Made by a program: the position numbers and the translations under genes
DNA from: Cyanomargarita calcarea GSE-NOS-MK-12-04C
Lineage (GTDB): Bacteria > Cyanobacteriota > Cyanobacteriia > Cyanobacteriales > Nostocaceae
Assembly: GCA_019359595.1 (NCBI GenBank)
Contig: JAHHGZ010000023.1
Location: 1 to 64,000, forward strand
Length of the DNA stretch: 64,000 bases
Reading direction: 5' to 3'
Notes under the pieces: model-generated
Databases searched by the model: none
What the model was told of the DNA's origin: nothing
Seen by the model: the letters and a program-made list of their open reading frames with translations, nothing else
In this document: piece by piece, positions 14,358-19,773 of the stretch
Position numbering within the stretch: position 1 is the stretch's first letter
Layout: each line of letters begins with the position of its first letter

Positions 14358-15071
14358 TTAACAGTTATCAGTTTGGACTATACTTTGAGAATCACGAGCT
14401 AAACGACCATCTTCCATTTCCAAGATGCGATCGGCTATGTCTAAAATGCGGTTGTCGTGAGTGACTAATAGGATAGAAGTCCCTTGGTCTTTGGCAAGTC
14501 GCTGCATCAATTCCACAACATCCCGTCCTGATTGTTTATCCAAAGCCGCTGTGGGTTCATCTGCGAGTACTAATGCTGGACTATTCACCAAAGCACGGGC
14601 GATCGCTATTCTTTGTTTTTGCCCACCAGAAAGATTTTCTGGATAGTAATTAATCCGTTCTCCCAAACCAACGGAACTCAATATTTGTTGTGATTTAGTA
14701 ACAGCTTCATACTGGGGAATCTCTTCATTAAGTTCCACTGCCATTTGCACATTTTGTCTAGCAGTTAAAAATCCTAACAAATTGTGAGCTTGGAAAATAT
14801 AGCCAATATTGCGCCTAACTCCAACTAATTGTTCTTGAGTGGCTCCAGATAATTCTTGACCTAAAAATTTTAGATTTCCCTCTTGTACGGAGCGCAAGCC
14901 ACCAATCAAGCTTAGTAATGTTGTTTTTCCTGAACCTGAGGGTCCAGTCATAATCACAATTTCTCCTGGATAAATCTCTAGGTTGATATCAAACAAAATC
15001 TGTTTTTTGAGTGCGCCTTTACCGTAGTAGTGGCTGATATTTTGAATGCTAATTACAGGTGTTGGCATCAT
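14358..15071 (-). CDS. devA: DevA, ATPase of heterocyst glycolipid exporter
   Basis: A 237-residue ABC ATPase of the DevA/MacB-LolD type. Walker A GPSGSGKT is at 43-50, the signature LSGGQ at 147-151, and Walker B ends in DE at 171-172, with the switch His in LLVTHD. It would power the DevBCA efflux pump, which with a TolC-like outer-membrane protein exports heterocyst glycolipids for the laminated envelope layer in Anabaena. It is last in the order devB-devC-devA on the minus strand. The 199-base gap to devC is filled by inverted heptamer arrays. Paralogous devBCA-like operons exist in cyanobacteria, so orthology rests on gene order plus the NtcA promoter. Confidence 0.9.
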   Translation of the reverse strand: MMPTPVISIQNISHYYGKGALKKQILFDINLEIYPGEIVIMTGPSGSGKTTLLSLIGGLRSVQEGNLKFLGQELSGATQEQLVGVRRNIGYIFQAHNLLGFLTARQNVQMAVELNEEIPQYEAVTKSQQILSSVGLGERINYYPENLSGGQKQRIAIARALVNSPALVLADEPTAALDKQSGRDVVELMQRLAKDQGTSILLVTHDNRILDIADRILEMEDGRLARDSQSIVQTDNC

Positions 15072-15270: not shown

Positions 15271-16425
15271 TTAAAATATATCTGCCGGGTCAGCAGAACG
15301 TAGTTTACGGACGGCAATAGTACCAGAGATAAAACACATAATTATCGTCATAATCAGTACCATAATGGCTCGTTCAAAATTCATAAATACAGGTAAAAGT
15401 GTCGCATTTCTTGCACTGTTGTATAAAAATAGAGTGAAAGCAAATCCAGGAAAATATCCTAAAATAGCTAAAATAAAAGCTTCTTGTAAAATTACAATTA
15501 ACAAATATTTCTGTGTATAACCAATAGCCTTTAGGGTTGCATACTCAGCCAAGTGGTCAGTAACTTCTGTGTAAAGTATTTGATAAACAATCACGGTTCC
15601 CACAATGAAACCCATGATTGTCCCTAATGTGAAAATAAAACCAATCGCTGTACTACTTGCCCAGAATTCTCTCTCAAAATCAATAAACTCTTGTTTTGTT
15701 AAAACTTTGACATCATCTGTTAAATTCTTTCTCAATTGTTCTGCTACGGCATTGGCATCTGCTCCAGGCTTTAATCTAATTACTCCAATATCAATTAATC
15801 CTCGCTGACGGCTACTAAATATTCTTAAAAAGTTTACATCACTGGTAATTAAATTCCCATCTGCGGCAAATGATGCACCTAATGTAAACAATCCTCCCAC
15901 CTTAATTCGTCTTCTTCTAACTTCTGTTGTAACAGTTTTTCCTTGTTCAAATTCAGCAACAATTGGACCAAATTCTGGTCTGGAAGCCCGGTCATATAAA
16001 ACTGTGTCCGGCAATTTTATTTTATTTATATTTTCCTGGACTCCAGGCAAGTTAATTATATTAAACTCGGGATTAATTCCAATTAAAACAAGATTTCGCG
16101 GACGACCTGTTGCGGGATTTTTCCAACTAGTGAAGTCTATATATATAGGATGTACTGATTCTACTGTTGGTAAATCTAAAGCTTTATACAAACGTCTTTG
16201 AGAAAAGCTCTTCATAGACGGTAATGCACTAGATTGAGAATTGATTAAAACAATATCTCCCCGTAAGCTATCGTGTATCCTAACGTTGCTCAAATACAAA
16301 GAATCTCGGAAACCGAGTTGCATAAACATGAGGATGTCCGCAAAAGCTATTCCTGCCAGTGCCACACCCAAGCGAGTTGCTTCTCGCTTGAGTTGTAGCC
16401 AAGCTAGAGGTATTTTCCCCTTCAT
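15271..16425 (-). CDS. devC: DevC, permease of heterocyst glycolipid exporter
   Basis: A 384-residue FtsX/MacB-type permease. One N-terminal transmembrane helix (about 17-37) is followed by a large periplasmic domain (about 40-255) and three C-terminal helices (about 258-285, 305-330, 345-370), the classic DevC topology. The periplasmic part would dock to DevB. It sits between devB and devA on the same strand, spaced 159 bases from devB and 199 from devA by repeat-filled gaps. The C-terminus RKLRSADPADIF matches the DevC family. No frameshift or damage is visible. Confidence 0.92.
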   Translation of the reverse strand: MKGKIPLAWLQLKREATRLGVALAGIAFADILMFMQLGFRDSLYLSNVRIHDSLRGDIVLINSQSSALPSMKSFSQRRLYKALDLPTVESVHPIYIDFTSWKNPATGRPRNLVLIGINPEFNIINLPGVQENINKIKLPDTVLYDRASRPEFGPIVAEFEQGKTVTTEVRRRRIKVGGLFTLGASFAADGNLITSDVNFLRIFSSRQRGLIDIGVIRLKPGADANAVAEQLRKNLTDDVKVLTKQEFIDFEREFWASSTAIGFIFTLGTIMGFIVGTVIVYQILYTEVTDHLAEYATLKAIGYTQKYLLIVILQEAFILAILGYFPGFAFTLFLYNSARNATLLPVFMNFERAIMVLIMTIIMCFISGTIAVRKLRSADPADIF

Positions 16426-16584: not shown

Positions 16585-17991
16585 TTAGAGATCAATTTCA
16601 ACAGCCACTTTCGCATAAGTTAAACCTGCTACTCGTTGGCTGTATTGAGGAGGGAGAGCAATTTTTACTTCTACGACTCTGGCATCTACATCGGCAGCAG
16701 GGTCAGTATTAAGCACATCTTTTTTACCAATTTTTCTGCCAATCTCAACGACGCTTCCTTGTAATTCACCAGTGAAGGCACCATTATCACTGCTGATTGT
16801 GGCTTTTTGACCGAGACGCACCAGGCCAATGCTATCTTCCGGAACTTCCGCGATCGCAATCATCTGGTCGGTTCTACCAATCTCAGCAATGCCGTTTGCA
16901 CTCATGTTTTCTCCCGCTTTGGTGTGAATTTTAATAATTTCTCCAGCAATTGGGGCTGTAACGTAGCTCAAGCGCATTTCAGCTTCGGCTTTTCTGACAA
17001 GCGCGATCGCATTACTAACTTTGGCTTGTGCCATTTGCACATCGGTCGGACGAACTTCTTCAATTCTGTTAAATTTTGCTCGTTCTTCGTCGATTTGCCT
17101 CCGGAGAGTTTCTATGGTTTTGTCACGGTTAACCCTAGCTTCGATAATTTGCTGTTGCAATATAGCGATCGTTTTGATCTGGTTTGCCCTAGCTTCGGCA
17201 ATTTGCTGTTGCAATGTGGCAACTATCTGAGTGCGGTTAGCTTGACCTTCGATCAGTTGTTGGTCTGCAGTTTCCGAACTTAACTTTCTTCTGTCCCGGT
17301 CTTCCCTAGAAATAGCACCCTCTTCATATAACCTTTCATAGCGATCGTTTTCTACCTGAGCGTTGCGAGCTTGTGCTGATTGTCGTGAAACTGTTGCTCT
17401 AGAAGCATTTTGTTGTCCTTGCAACTCTGCTGTAAGACGATTTACCATCGCTTGTTGGGCAATTTTTTCTCCACGTAACTGAGCTTCGATGCGAGTTATA
17501 GTGGCTTGTTGGGCTTCTGTTTCTCCCCGCAACTGGGCTTGCAAGCGAGCAACTACCGCTTTTTGAGCTTGAACATCTCTTGGGGAAACAACTTTTACAT
17601 TTGTCAAACTAGCACGGGATTCTTGGAGTTTGGCTTTTGCTTCTTCCACTGCTGCTTGGTTGCTACCAAGACTATCCAAAACCGCAATTACTTGGTCTTT
17701 TCTGACTCGTTCTCCTTCTCTAACCAAAATTTGCTCAACTCGTGATGCTGCCGAGATTCCTGATGTTGGAGCAGATAGTCTAATCACTTCTCCTTTTGGT
17801 TCCAAGCGTCCCAAAGCATTAACGCTGCTAGCAACCTTTGTGTTTGTTGGAGGCACGTTCAGAGTTCTTAACATCTGGACTCTGGCTATAGCTAAAACTC
17901 CAGCAGTAATTATTAATGGTAGAGCGAAAACAACGCCCCATCGAACCGTTGGCTGCTCCCTTGTCCTTGATTTCTCACTTACCCTTGACAT
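16585..17991 (-). CDS. devB: DevB, membrane fusion protein of heterocyst glycolipid exporter
   Basis: A 468-residue HlyD/DevB-type periplasmic adaptor. One N-terminal membrane anchor (about 18-42) is followed by a lipoyl half (PKGEVIRLSAPTSG), a very long alpha-helical hairpin (about 105-320) made of Gln/Ala/Arg-rich repeats such as QAQLRGETEAQQAT and IATLQQQIAEARAN, the second lipoyl half (VTAPIAGEIIKIHTKAGE, about 340-358) and a beta-barrel domain. It bridges DevC/DevA to an outer-membrane TolC-like channel. It is the first gene of the operon. An NtcA-type promoter lies about 760 bases upstream (18758-18799), the same unusual arrangement known for Anabaena devBCA. Confidence 0.92.
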   Translation of the reverse strand: MSRVSEKSRTREQPTVRWGVVFALPLIITAGVLAIARVQMLRTLNVPPTNTKVASSVNALGRLEPKGEVIRLSAPTSGISAASRVEQILVREGERVRKDQVIAVLDSLGSNQAAVEEAKAKLQESRASLTNVKVVSPRDVQAQKAVVARLQAQLRGETEAQQATITRIEAQLRGEKIAQQAMVNRLTAELQGQQNASRATVSRQSAQARNAQVENDRYERLYEEGAISREDRDRRKLSSETADQQLIEGQANRTQIVATLQQQIAEARANQIKTIAILQQQIIEARVNRDKTIETLRRQIDEERAKFNRIEEVRPTDVQMAQAKVSNAIALVRKAEAEMRLSYVTAPIAGEIIKIHTKAGENMSANGIAEIGRTDQMIAIAEVPEDSIGLVRLGQKATISSDNGAFTGELQGSVVEIGRKIGKKDVLNTDPAADVDARVVEVKIALPPQYSQRVAGLTYAKVAVEIDL

Positions 17992-18226
17992 GGTATGTTG
18001 CCTGTTAGTCTAAATTTTGCTGATTGAAGTAAAAAAGATAGTCAGGTGCAGTTAGATTAGTTAAAAAGTCTTTTTGTTAAACAGCCAGCGGCTAATAATT
18101 CGCTGTTATAAAGGATAGTAAAAGCGTATAAACACGGGTATATTTTTATTTATTAAATTGGAAGTCCCTAAGAGTTAATAATCAAATATAGCAATCCTAT
18201 ATGATTTCTTAAAAACCGTGGTGTCC

Positions 18227-18259
18227 AGATTTACGACTTCTTAAATAAGTCAGGGATCT
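18227..18259. repeat. Dispersed 33-bp palindrome (copy 2, degraded)
   Basis: Imperfect form of the palindrome seen at 6169 and 30962: the arms share GACTTCTTAAA/TAAGTC and AGAT/ATCT ends. It lies in the presumed devB leader. Confidence 0.7.
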
Positions 18260-18529
18260 AAATTTTTACAACTGATTTAGGACTGCTATATGATGTGAAC
18301 AGCCAGAAATTAAGCCATCTGTAATTTACATCTGACTGTTATGCAATTTGGTATCATAAACCAACAAAGCATGAGATTGCTTTCTCGAAGTTTGTGACAT
18401 ACACCCGGTTAGTTGAGGCGATGCTATGCTGGTAAATTACCCGCATCAAGTGTGGTTGTATTGTGTGGCTTGCCCTTTGTCTGAAGTTTTTGTCAAAGGT
18501 TTTTATTAATGATCGTTACTTATGACAGC

Positions 18530-18630
18530 TAGTAGTCCGCCAATTCAATATTTCTAGGTGCGACCATGAAGCCCCCTTGCCACCAATTCTAAGGGAGAAG
18601 AAAAATCAAACTTGCCTTGACAGACTACTA
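18530..18630. mobile_element. TA-flanked MITE
   Basis: TA dinucleotides at 18530-18531 and 18629-18630 enclose terminal inverted repeats GTAGTCCGCCAA and TTGACAGACTAC (two mismatches) around about 75 bases without coding capacity. The TA flanks suggest mobilisation by an IS630/Tc1-mariner type transposase. Sister element at 48390-48520. Confidence 0.75.
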
Positions 18631-18757
18631 GAACGTTCTCCTCATAACGCTTTTGTTAACTTTTTGCTCAATCTTAAGCCAGGAAAATATCAGATTATCT
18701 TTGAGTATAGTTTTTCCTGCCAATATTTTCTAACTCCATCGAACTCTTGTTAAATGA

Positions 18758-18799
18758 ATTCTACATACATAAGTTTTGAGAAAACGTAGCAGAACCTAC
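18758..18799 (-). promoter_or_regulatory. NtcA-activated promoter of devBCA
   Basis: Reading the minus strand, GTA-N8-TAC (18799 to 18786) is followed after exactly 22 bases by TAGAAT (18763 to 18758), which fits a TAN3T -10 box. This is the canonical class II NtcA promoter layout. Transcription would start near 18751, about 760 nt before the devB ATG, under nitrogen-step-down/heterocyst control. Confidence 0.75.
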
Positions 18800-19035
18800 A
18801 GATAATCATTTAAAATTTCTCAAAACACGCACAAATAGAGGATAAATAAAGAAAAAGATAATGTACACCTTTTTCTTTTCAACCCCATTATTGAGAATAA
18901 ATTTATTGACAAAAAAATAATCTTGATTATCCGAGAGTTGGAGGTTTAATACCCCGACCTTATACGAGTCGTCCGTTTTGAGTTAGGGTTCCAATCCACA
19001 GGTCGAAACCTCTTCCTTCTTCCTTCTTCCTTCAT

Positions 19036-19773
19036 TCAATCTGGTAAATCAAACAAAACTGTGGTCATGTAATTTTCTGCCCATACTTCACCAAAGGCTT
19101 TTTCTAATACGCGACGGGTTTTGTCATTCTGTTGCTGTTTGTTACAGTAGTTATGTTGTCCGGCAATTATCTGCGCTTTCACTTCAGGTGTAACAGGTTG
19201 AGAAGCGATCGCTTGGGTACAATGAATCTCTAAAAAATTCTCGACCCGAAGAAGAAACATCGTTTCCTCCTCACTAGAACTAGGACGGACGAACAAACAA
19301 AAGTCTGAAAAGATATCTCCCCACTCCGGTAATTCACGAGGTTGAGAAAAGTTTGCCGCTCCCAAATTGGAGAGTGCATCAGTATAAGATGCGGGTAAGA
19401 TGTGTTTCTGTTTCAGGGGAGAAAGGTCGGCGATCGCTGCACTAATTTGACCTCTACCACCGACTAAATCGCAACCAAACATCGGTAAGTCGTATTCTGG
19501 ACGGGGAAACATGACGCAATGCAAAATATCCAGCATATTCCCCACTTTTGCCAGTTCTAGGTGCATTTTCCGAAACTGGGGTGTTTGATAGCAGCGATTT
19601 TCAATTACAAGCTTTTCACCTTCTAATCTACCTTCCACATACCCTAAGTCCTCGGGCAAATGGTAAGGGGACAAGTCGAGATGCTTGTGCCAAACTGCTT
19701 CAATACAATCAGCGAGTTGATGAATCAGGGGATGTTGTTGCTCCCGTAGCGAAGGTGTAGAAGTAGTTGACAT
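19036..19773 (-). CDS. pcyA: Phycocyanobilin:ferredoxin oxidoreductase
   Basis: A 245-residue PcyA, which reduces biliverdin IXalpha by four electrons from ferredoxin to phycocyanobilin, the chromophore of phycobilisomes and phytochromes. The active-site residues His85 (in [14 protein letters not shown]) and Asp102 (in MFGCDLVGG) are present at the same numbers as in Nostoc PcyA. The ferredoxin-dependent bilin reductase fold runs the full length, ending in [14 protein letters not shown]. It is alone on the minus strand with more than 700 bases to the devBCA promoter. This gene implies phycobilisome-based light harvesting in the host. Confidence 0.97.

Follow-up and report, generated by a model that had tools for sequence, protein, structure and literature searches.

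The devBCA operon and its upstream neighborhood

In the window (the whole stretch of 64,000 nucleotides that we analyzed), three genes on the minus strand follow one another in the order devB, devC and devA. devB (16585..17991) encodes a membrane fusion protein (TIGR02971; 295 bits, cut-off 129), devC (15271..16425) a permease that matches an equivalog family (TIGR01185; 669 bits, cut-off 290) and devA (14358..15071) an ATPase (TIGR02982; 380 bits, cut-off 296). Both the gene order and the protein families are those of the heterocyst devBCA operon, which in Anabaena is transcribed as one unit under NtcA control and exports the glycolipids of heterocysts (PMC6161253, in the part available). Upstream of devB, on the same strand, lies pcyA (19036..19773; NF002760, 375 bits, cut-off 206). 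This linkage recurs in 70 of 80 devB loci (the best 80 of 177 relatives); four of the other ten have too little upstream DNA, and the remaining six keep the promoter described below with no pcyA in the 4 kb upstream (L019, L030, L034, L037, L049 and L077). Because these six loci keep it, the promoter block goes with devB, not with pcyA.

The genome encodes five DevB proteins that score over the family cut-off. The window copy is 62–71% identical to the six orthologues tested and 35–40% identical to the four other copies of its own genome. Orthology to the Anabaena copy was judged through the DevB of Nostoc parmelioides (locus L071), which carries the proximal NtcA site of Anabaena sp. PCC 7120 and served as a stand-in for that strain: it is 65% identical to the window DevB and 34–40% identical to the other four copies. 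In the ~1300 nt upstream of each of the five devB genes, the pattern GTAN8TAC-N20..24-TAN3T occurs only before the window copy; another copy (C56) shows a looser match of the GTN10AC type at -48 relative to its start. Orthology, pcyA linkage and the sole class II promoter among five copies all point to the heterocyst exporter devBCA, bearing out what an earlier, sequence-only reading of this DNA had claimed for the operon. The same reading had called the organism heterocystous. We found one HetR_C domain (PF18460), three HetP-family matches (NF037966) and two nifH matches (TIGR01287), the latter two families over their cut-offs, together with nifV (TIGR02660). Genes for hetR, the HetP family and nitrogenase together indicate heterocysts, and the organism is very probably a heterocyst former.

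A conserved, probable distal promoter element

Read along the minus strand from 18799 to 18758, the DNA consists of GTAGGTTCTGCTAC, 22 bases and TAGAAT, confirming the arrangement of GTA-N8-TAC, exactly 22 bases and TAGAAT about 760 nt before devB that had been noted from the sequence. The NtcA box GTAGGTTCTGCTAC occupies 18786..18799, the spacer, which begins with GTTTTC in the window, 18764..18785, and the -10 element TAGAAT, of the TAN3T class, 18758..18763. From the position of the -10 element, transcription is predicted to start 6–7 nt past it, at 18751..18752. The center of the box, between 18792 and 18793, lies 41.5 bases upstream of 18751, and the devB ATG (17991) lies 760 nt downstream. 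Canonical NtcA promoters combine a box at about -41.5 with a TAN3T element (PMC3898017, in the part available); with the start placed as predicted, the GTAN8TAC box, its center near -41.5 and the TAN3T -10 element fit the class II type.

We compared the window DevB with genome contigs, obtained 177 relatives and used the best 80, that is the most window-like ones. Three loci with less than 400 nt upstream of devB (L012, L028 and L061) were dropped, leaving 77 related loci that, with the window, make up a set of 78, all of which reach this 400-nt minimum. The box, the 22-base spacer and TAGAAT are present in all 78 upstream regions. When spacings from 8 to 44 bases after the box were tested, TAGAAT occurred 78 times at N22, once at N41 and never elsewhere; the looser TAN3T occurred in 78 loci at N22 and in 0–6 at other spacings. 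These counts are not independent, because homologous loci are compared and several among the 77 are nearly identical, and the pattern is best read as a block under strong conservation rather than as 77 independent events. The conserved zone starts 4–5 bases 5' of the box, extends ~25–30 bases beyond the -10 element and then drops. Mean column information, computed from 30 selected devB rows, is highest in the -10 element (1.93 bits), followed by the box (1.56), the spacer (1.15) and the upstream positions -20 to -6 (0.32). The conserved stretch past the -10 element, TCATTTAACAAGAGTTCGATGGAGT (18733..18757, minus strand), would be mostly transcribed if the predicted start is right.

In line with the earlier claim of a class II NtcA-type promoter, the conservation of box, N22 and TAGAAT in 78 of 78 devB loci supports such a promoter for devBCA. 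We put at about 0.9 the probability that 18733-18803 (minus strand) serves devBCA as its distal class II promoter, activated by NtcA, and very probably the element truly drives the heterocyst glycolipid export pump under nitrogen stress. The arrangement itself is already known, and what we describe is a promoter of a known kind in another genome: the distal promoter of devBCA in Anabaena sp. PCC 7120 was reportedly described in Fiedler 2001 and Camargo 2012. The operons are orthologous, and NtcA-dependent expression is known for the Anabaena one. ChIP-Seq in Anabaena PCC 7120 recovered known NtcA sites, that of devB included (PMC3898017, in the part available). In titles and abstract openings, a scope set without the two primary devB promoter papers, we found no description of family-wide conservation of the block.

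The 7.92 Mb genome holds three exact copies of the pattern GTAN8TAC-N22-TAGAAT and none of a reversed control pattern. The second site precedes nifV by ~330 nt, in the same orientation (L089:1501-1542; C27:133091-133132 in the genome's own numbering), and the third precedes an amylase-family gene by ~400 nt.

glnA, named as a gene with a canonical NtcA-dependent promoter (PMC3898017, in the part available), served as a control in 30 family loci from genomes other than those of the devB rows. The class II pattern was found in 23 of the 30. The two promoters share the box, the TAN3T -10 element and conserved first transcribed bases; unlike glnA, which has N23 in 22 of 23 loci and lies 153–159 nt before the coding match in 22 of 23, devB has N22 and a distance of 304–1464 nt. 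With the seven pattern-less glnA loci excluded from the averages, information in glnA versus devB is comparable in the spacer (0.91 versus 1.15) and the initial transcript (0.90 versus 1.03), and higher in glnA upstream of the box (1.13 versus 0.32). The idea that devB is peculiar in conserving its first transcribed bases was rejected, glnA being comparable. A further likeness is hgdB, a devB homologue of Anabaena PCC 7120, for which an NtcA site is predicted from -629 (PMC6161253, in the part available): it too has a far-upstream GTAN8TAC before a DevB-like protein, although the gene is a different one and the site only predicted.

The predicted devB leader and possible sources of devB transcript

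Between box and ATG, the 78 loci differ about fivefold in length (304–1464 nt, median 825.5; 808 in the window). For Anabaena we take the devB start positions to be -704 and -454, with a distal leader of ~700–704 nt. The sequence-only reading had taken the same odd distance from devB as the signature of this operon. That argument fails: with distances ranging from 304 to 1464 nt, the agreement of the window with ~700 nt in Anabaena is unremarkable, and the distance, being the unconserved part of the arrangement, cannot serve as a signature.

The predicted 5' leader of ~760 nt (17992..18751, minus strand; ~704 nt in PCC 7120) is little conserved inside, as judged by a k-mer comparison of 32 chosen leaders. 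Two dispersed repeats make up ~200 nt of it. One (18529..18631) has inverted-repeat ends and matches at least 27 other places in the genome, the second (18186..18291) at least 32, most of these matches being partial. A separate dispersed repeat (18925-19033), with at least ~50 matching pieces in the genome, lies between the pcyA stop and the promoter. Directly before the devB ATG lies a start-proximal block (17992..18037, minus strand) that is conserved in most loci; it may serve as a site of translation initiation, as an RNA target or as a promoter. Folding of the whole leader is unremarkable (z -1.49; of 20 shuffles, one folds as stably or better), and a comparison of the window with Rfam gave no match at or above a family's gathering score. 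Base pairing of the transcript start (GATGGAGT) with the start-proximal block (ACTTCCATC) was considered and rejected, since where the former differs, as in the Scytonema-type loci, the latter shows, by eye, no matching change.

Alongside the observed sequence, spacing, conservation, orthology and uniqueness among the genome's own devB copies, we propose the following course of events. Under nitrogen shortage, NtcA with 2-oxoglutarate would bind the GTAN8TAC box centered 41.5 bases before the start, take the place of a -35 element and bring RNA polymerase to TAGAAT. Transcription would then run from ~18751 through the ~760-nt leader and read through into devB, devC and devA, and the product, presumably made in the heterocyst, would be the pump that exports heterocyst glycolipids. 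Selection would keep the promoter and the first ~20 transcribed bases and leave the leader length nearly free, so that it has drifted, partly by way of dispersed repeats.

That box and -10 element match by chance alone, in AT-rich DNA between genes, has a negligible probability. The bare GTAN8TAC box is indeed at chance level (9 in the window, 8.55 expected from shuffles), and because of this frequency GTAN8TAC alone means nothing; the chance reading is refuted by the 78 of 78 loci with TAGAAT at N22 against at most one at any other spacing. A different possibility is that the conserved transcript start belongs to a transcript of its own, a small RNA or the message of a small protein made under nitrogen stress, and that a promoter closer to devB drives that gene. 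In favor of this, the initial transcribed stretch is conserved while its distance to devB is free, and ATGGAG appears within 160 nt past the -10 element in 61 of the 78 loci, nearly always at 17–19 nt, where it opens a short frame. That frame, however, is 2–45 amino acids long and not conserved, and 17 of 78 loci have no ATGGAG, for which reasons we rejected a small ORF after the promoter. Also against a separate transcript stand the comparable conservation of first transcribed bases in glnA, the lack of an Rfam family in the window and the absence of terminator-like sites between 17850 and 19100 on the devB strand; devB, alr3710 and pcyA do not appear in the main text, the part available, of a paper on small RNAs of heterocystous cyanobacteria (PMC4734099). 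We consider this explanation improbable.

A nearer devB promoter is nonetheless possible because sigma-70-like sites occur on the devB strand: 17850-19100 holds eight such sites (3.6 expected in shuffles), five of them on that strand. It could be that most devB transcript comes from a proximal promoter, as in Anabaena PCC 7120, and that the distal one is minor, which we regard as unlikely, if less so than a separate small RNA. A proximal devB promoter under NtcA control has been reported, its site being the non-consensus GTCATCTAAGTTGC (PMC3898017, in the part available), some of the sigma-70-like sites fall within the leader, and the start-proximal block is conserved in most loci. Yet the best match to GTCATCTAAGTTGC has no mismatch in L071, where the exact PCC 7120 site lies 247 nt downstream of the distal box of the same block, one in L066 and two in L044, and 4–6 in the other 75 of 78 loci, whereas the distal block is present in all 78; by our estimate, 4–5 mismatches over 14 positions are about what chance gives at ~1500 places. 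In the window the proximal site is unrecognizable, the best match having 6 mismatches of 14. The sequence-only reading had named a proximal promoter that explains all devB transcript as grounds for giving up its claim. Judged by sequence, a proximal promoter of some other kind is possible in the window; the Anabaena proximal NtcA site was not found there. The distal and a proximal promoter could also act together.

Distribution of the block and its possible loss

For the search in other genomes, we built a 73-base sequence-only model (R1) from 36 rows chosen for diversity, namely the window and 35 relatives; matches of R1 to these rows count for nothing, because the rows are in the model. Among 292 genomes drawn evenly over the phylum, 25 match at E<=1e-8, all of them among the 32 that belong to the window's family, and none of the 260 outside the family does so. 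At E<=0.01, 16 of these 260 match (best E 6e-5), which we take for noise. In a draw of family genomes, 188 of 217 match at E<=0.001. The position before devB was checked in the window, the 77 loci and six genomes (G191, G155, G149, G087, G051 and G233). Two of the latter with weak matches, G051 and G233, keep N22 and have TAGACT as the -10 element, 270 and 304 nt before devB, respectively. In Dolichospermum-like matches, which stop at model position 49–53, the stretch corresponding to 18733..18757 is missing.

The remaining 29 of the 217 gave no R1 match at E<=0.001 under strict filters (at least 3 of the 29 are under 90% complete). Because of these genomes, the block appears to be dispensable somewhere, and it is not a strict mark of the heterocyst trait. 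Five block-less family genomes (G019, G024, G042, G091 and G174) carry a DevB relative that is 60–67% identical, with no block in the first 1500 nt upstream and none when the search was extended to ~6 kb, even with filters off (best E 0.2). pcyA was likewise not found upstream of devB in these five (L141-L145; tblastn, E<=1e-10). As pcyA is the usual neighbor in block-bearing loci, its shared absence suggests that the block was lost when the pcyA-devB region was rearranged. A missing block is not simply a sign that nitrogenase has been lost, because 14 of 19 block-less genomes tested carry nifH over the family cut-off; among the other five, in several nifH is split or only a related protein was found.

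Taken as a whole, the comparison inclines us, by a modest degree, to the following history. The distal promoter and the first transcribed bases would be the family's ancestral switch for the glycolipid exporter, kept as a fixed block, with a leader left free to vary about fivefold by insertion and loss of repeats. The proximal NtcA promoter of PCC 7120 would be a later addition in one lineage, and some nitrogen-fixing lineages would have lost the block at a pcyA-devB rearrangement and now switch on devBCA otherwise. The promoter has been known from one laboratory strain, and the comparison supports that it is shared by most of the family. In place of the misleading criterion of distance, a 73-base block near devB picks out the heterocyst exporter among devB-like copies, and its absence points to lineages in which devBCA must have another switch.

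In several family genomes (G019, G087, G300, G475, G042 and others), the nifH matches appear to be split into two pieces that lie kilobases apart, as is expected of excisable elements in nifH.
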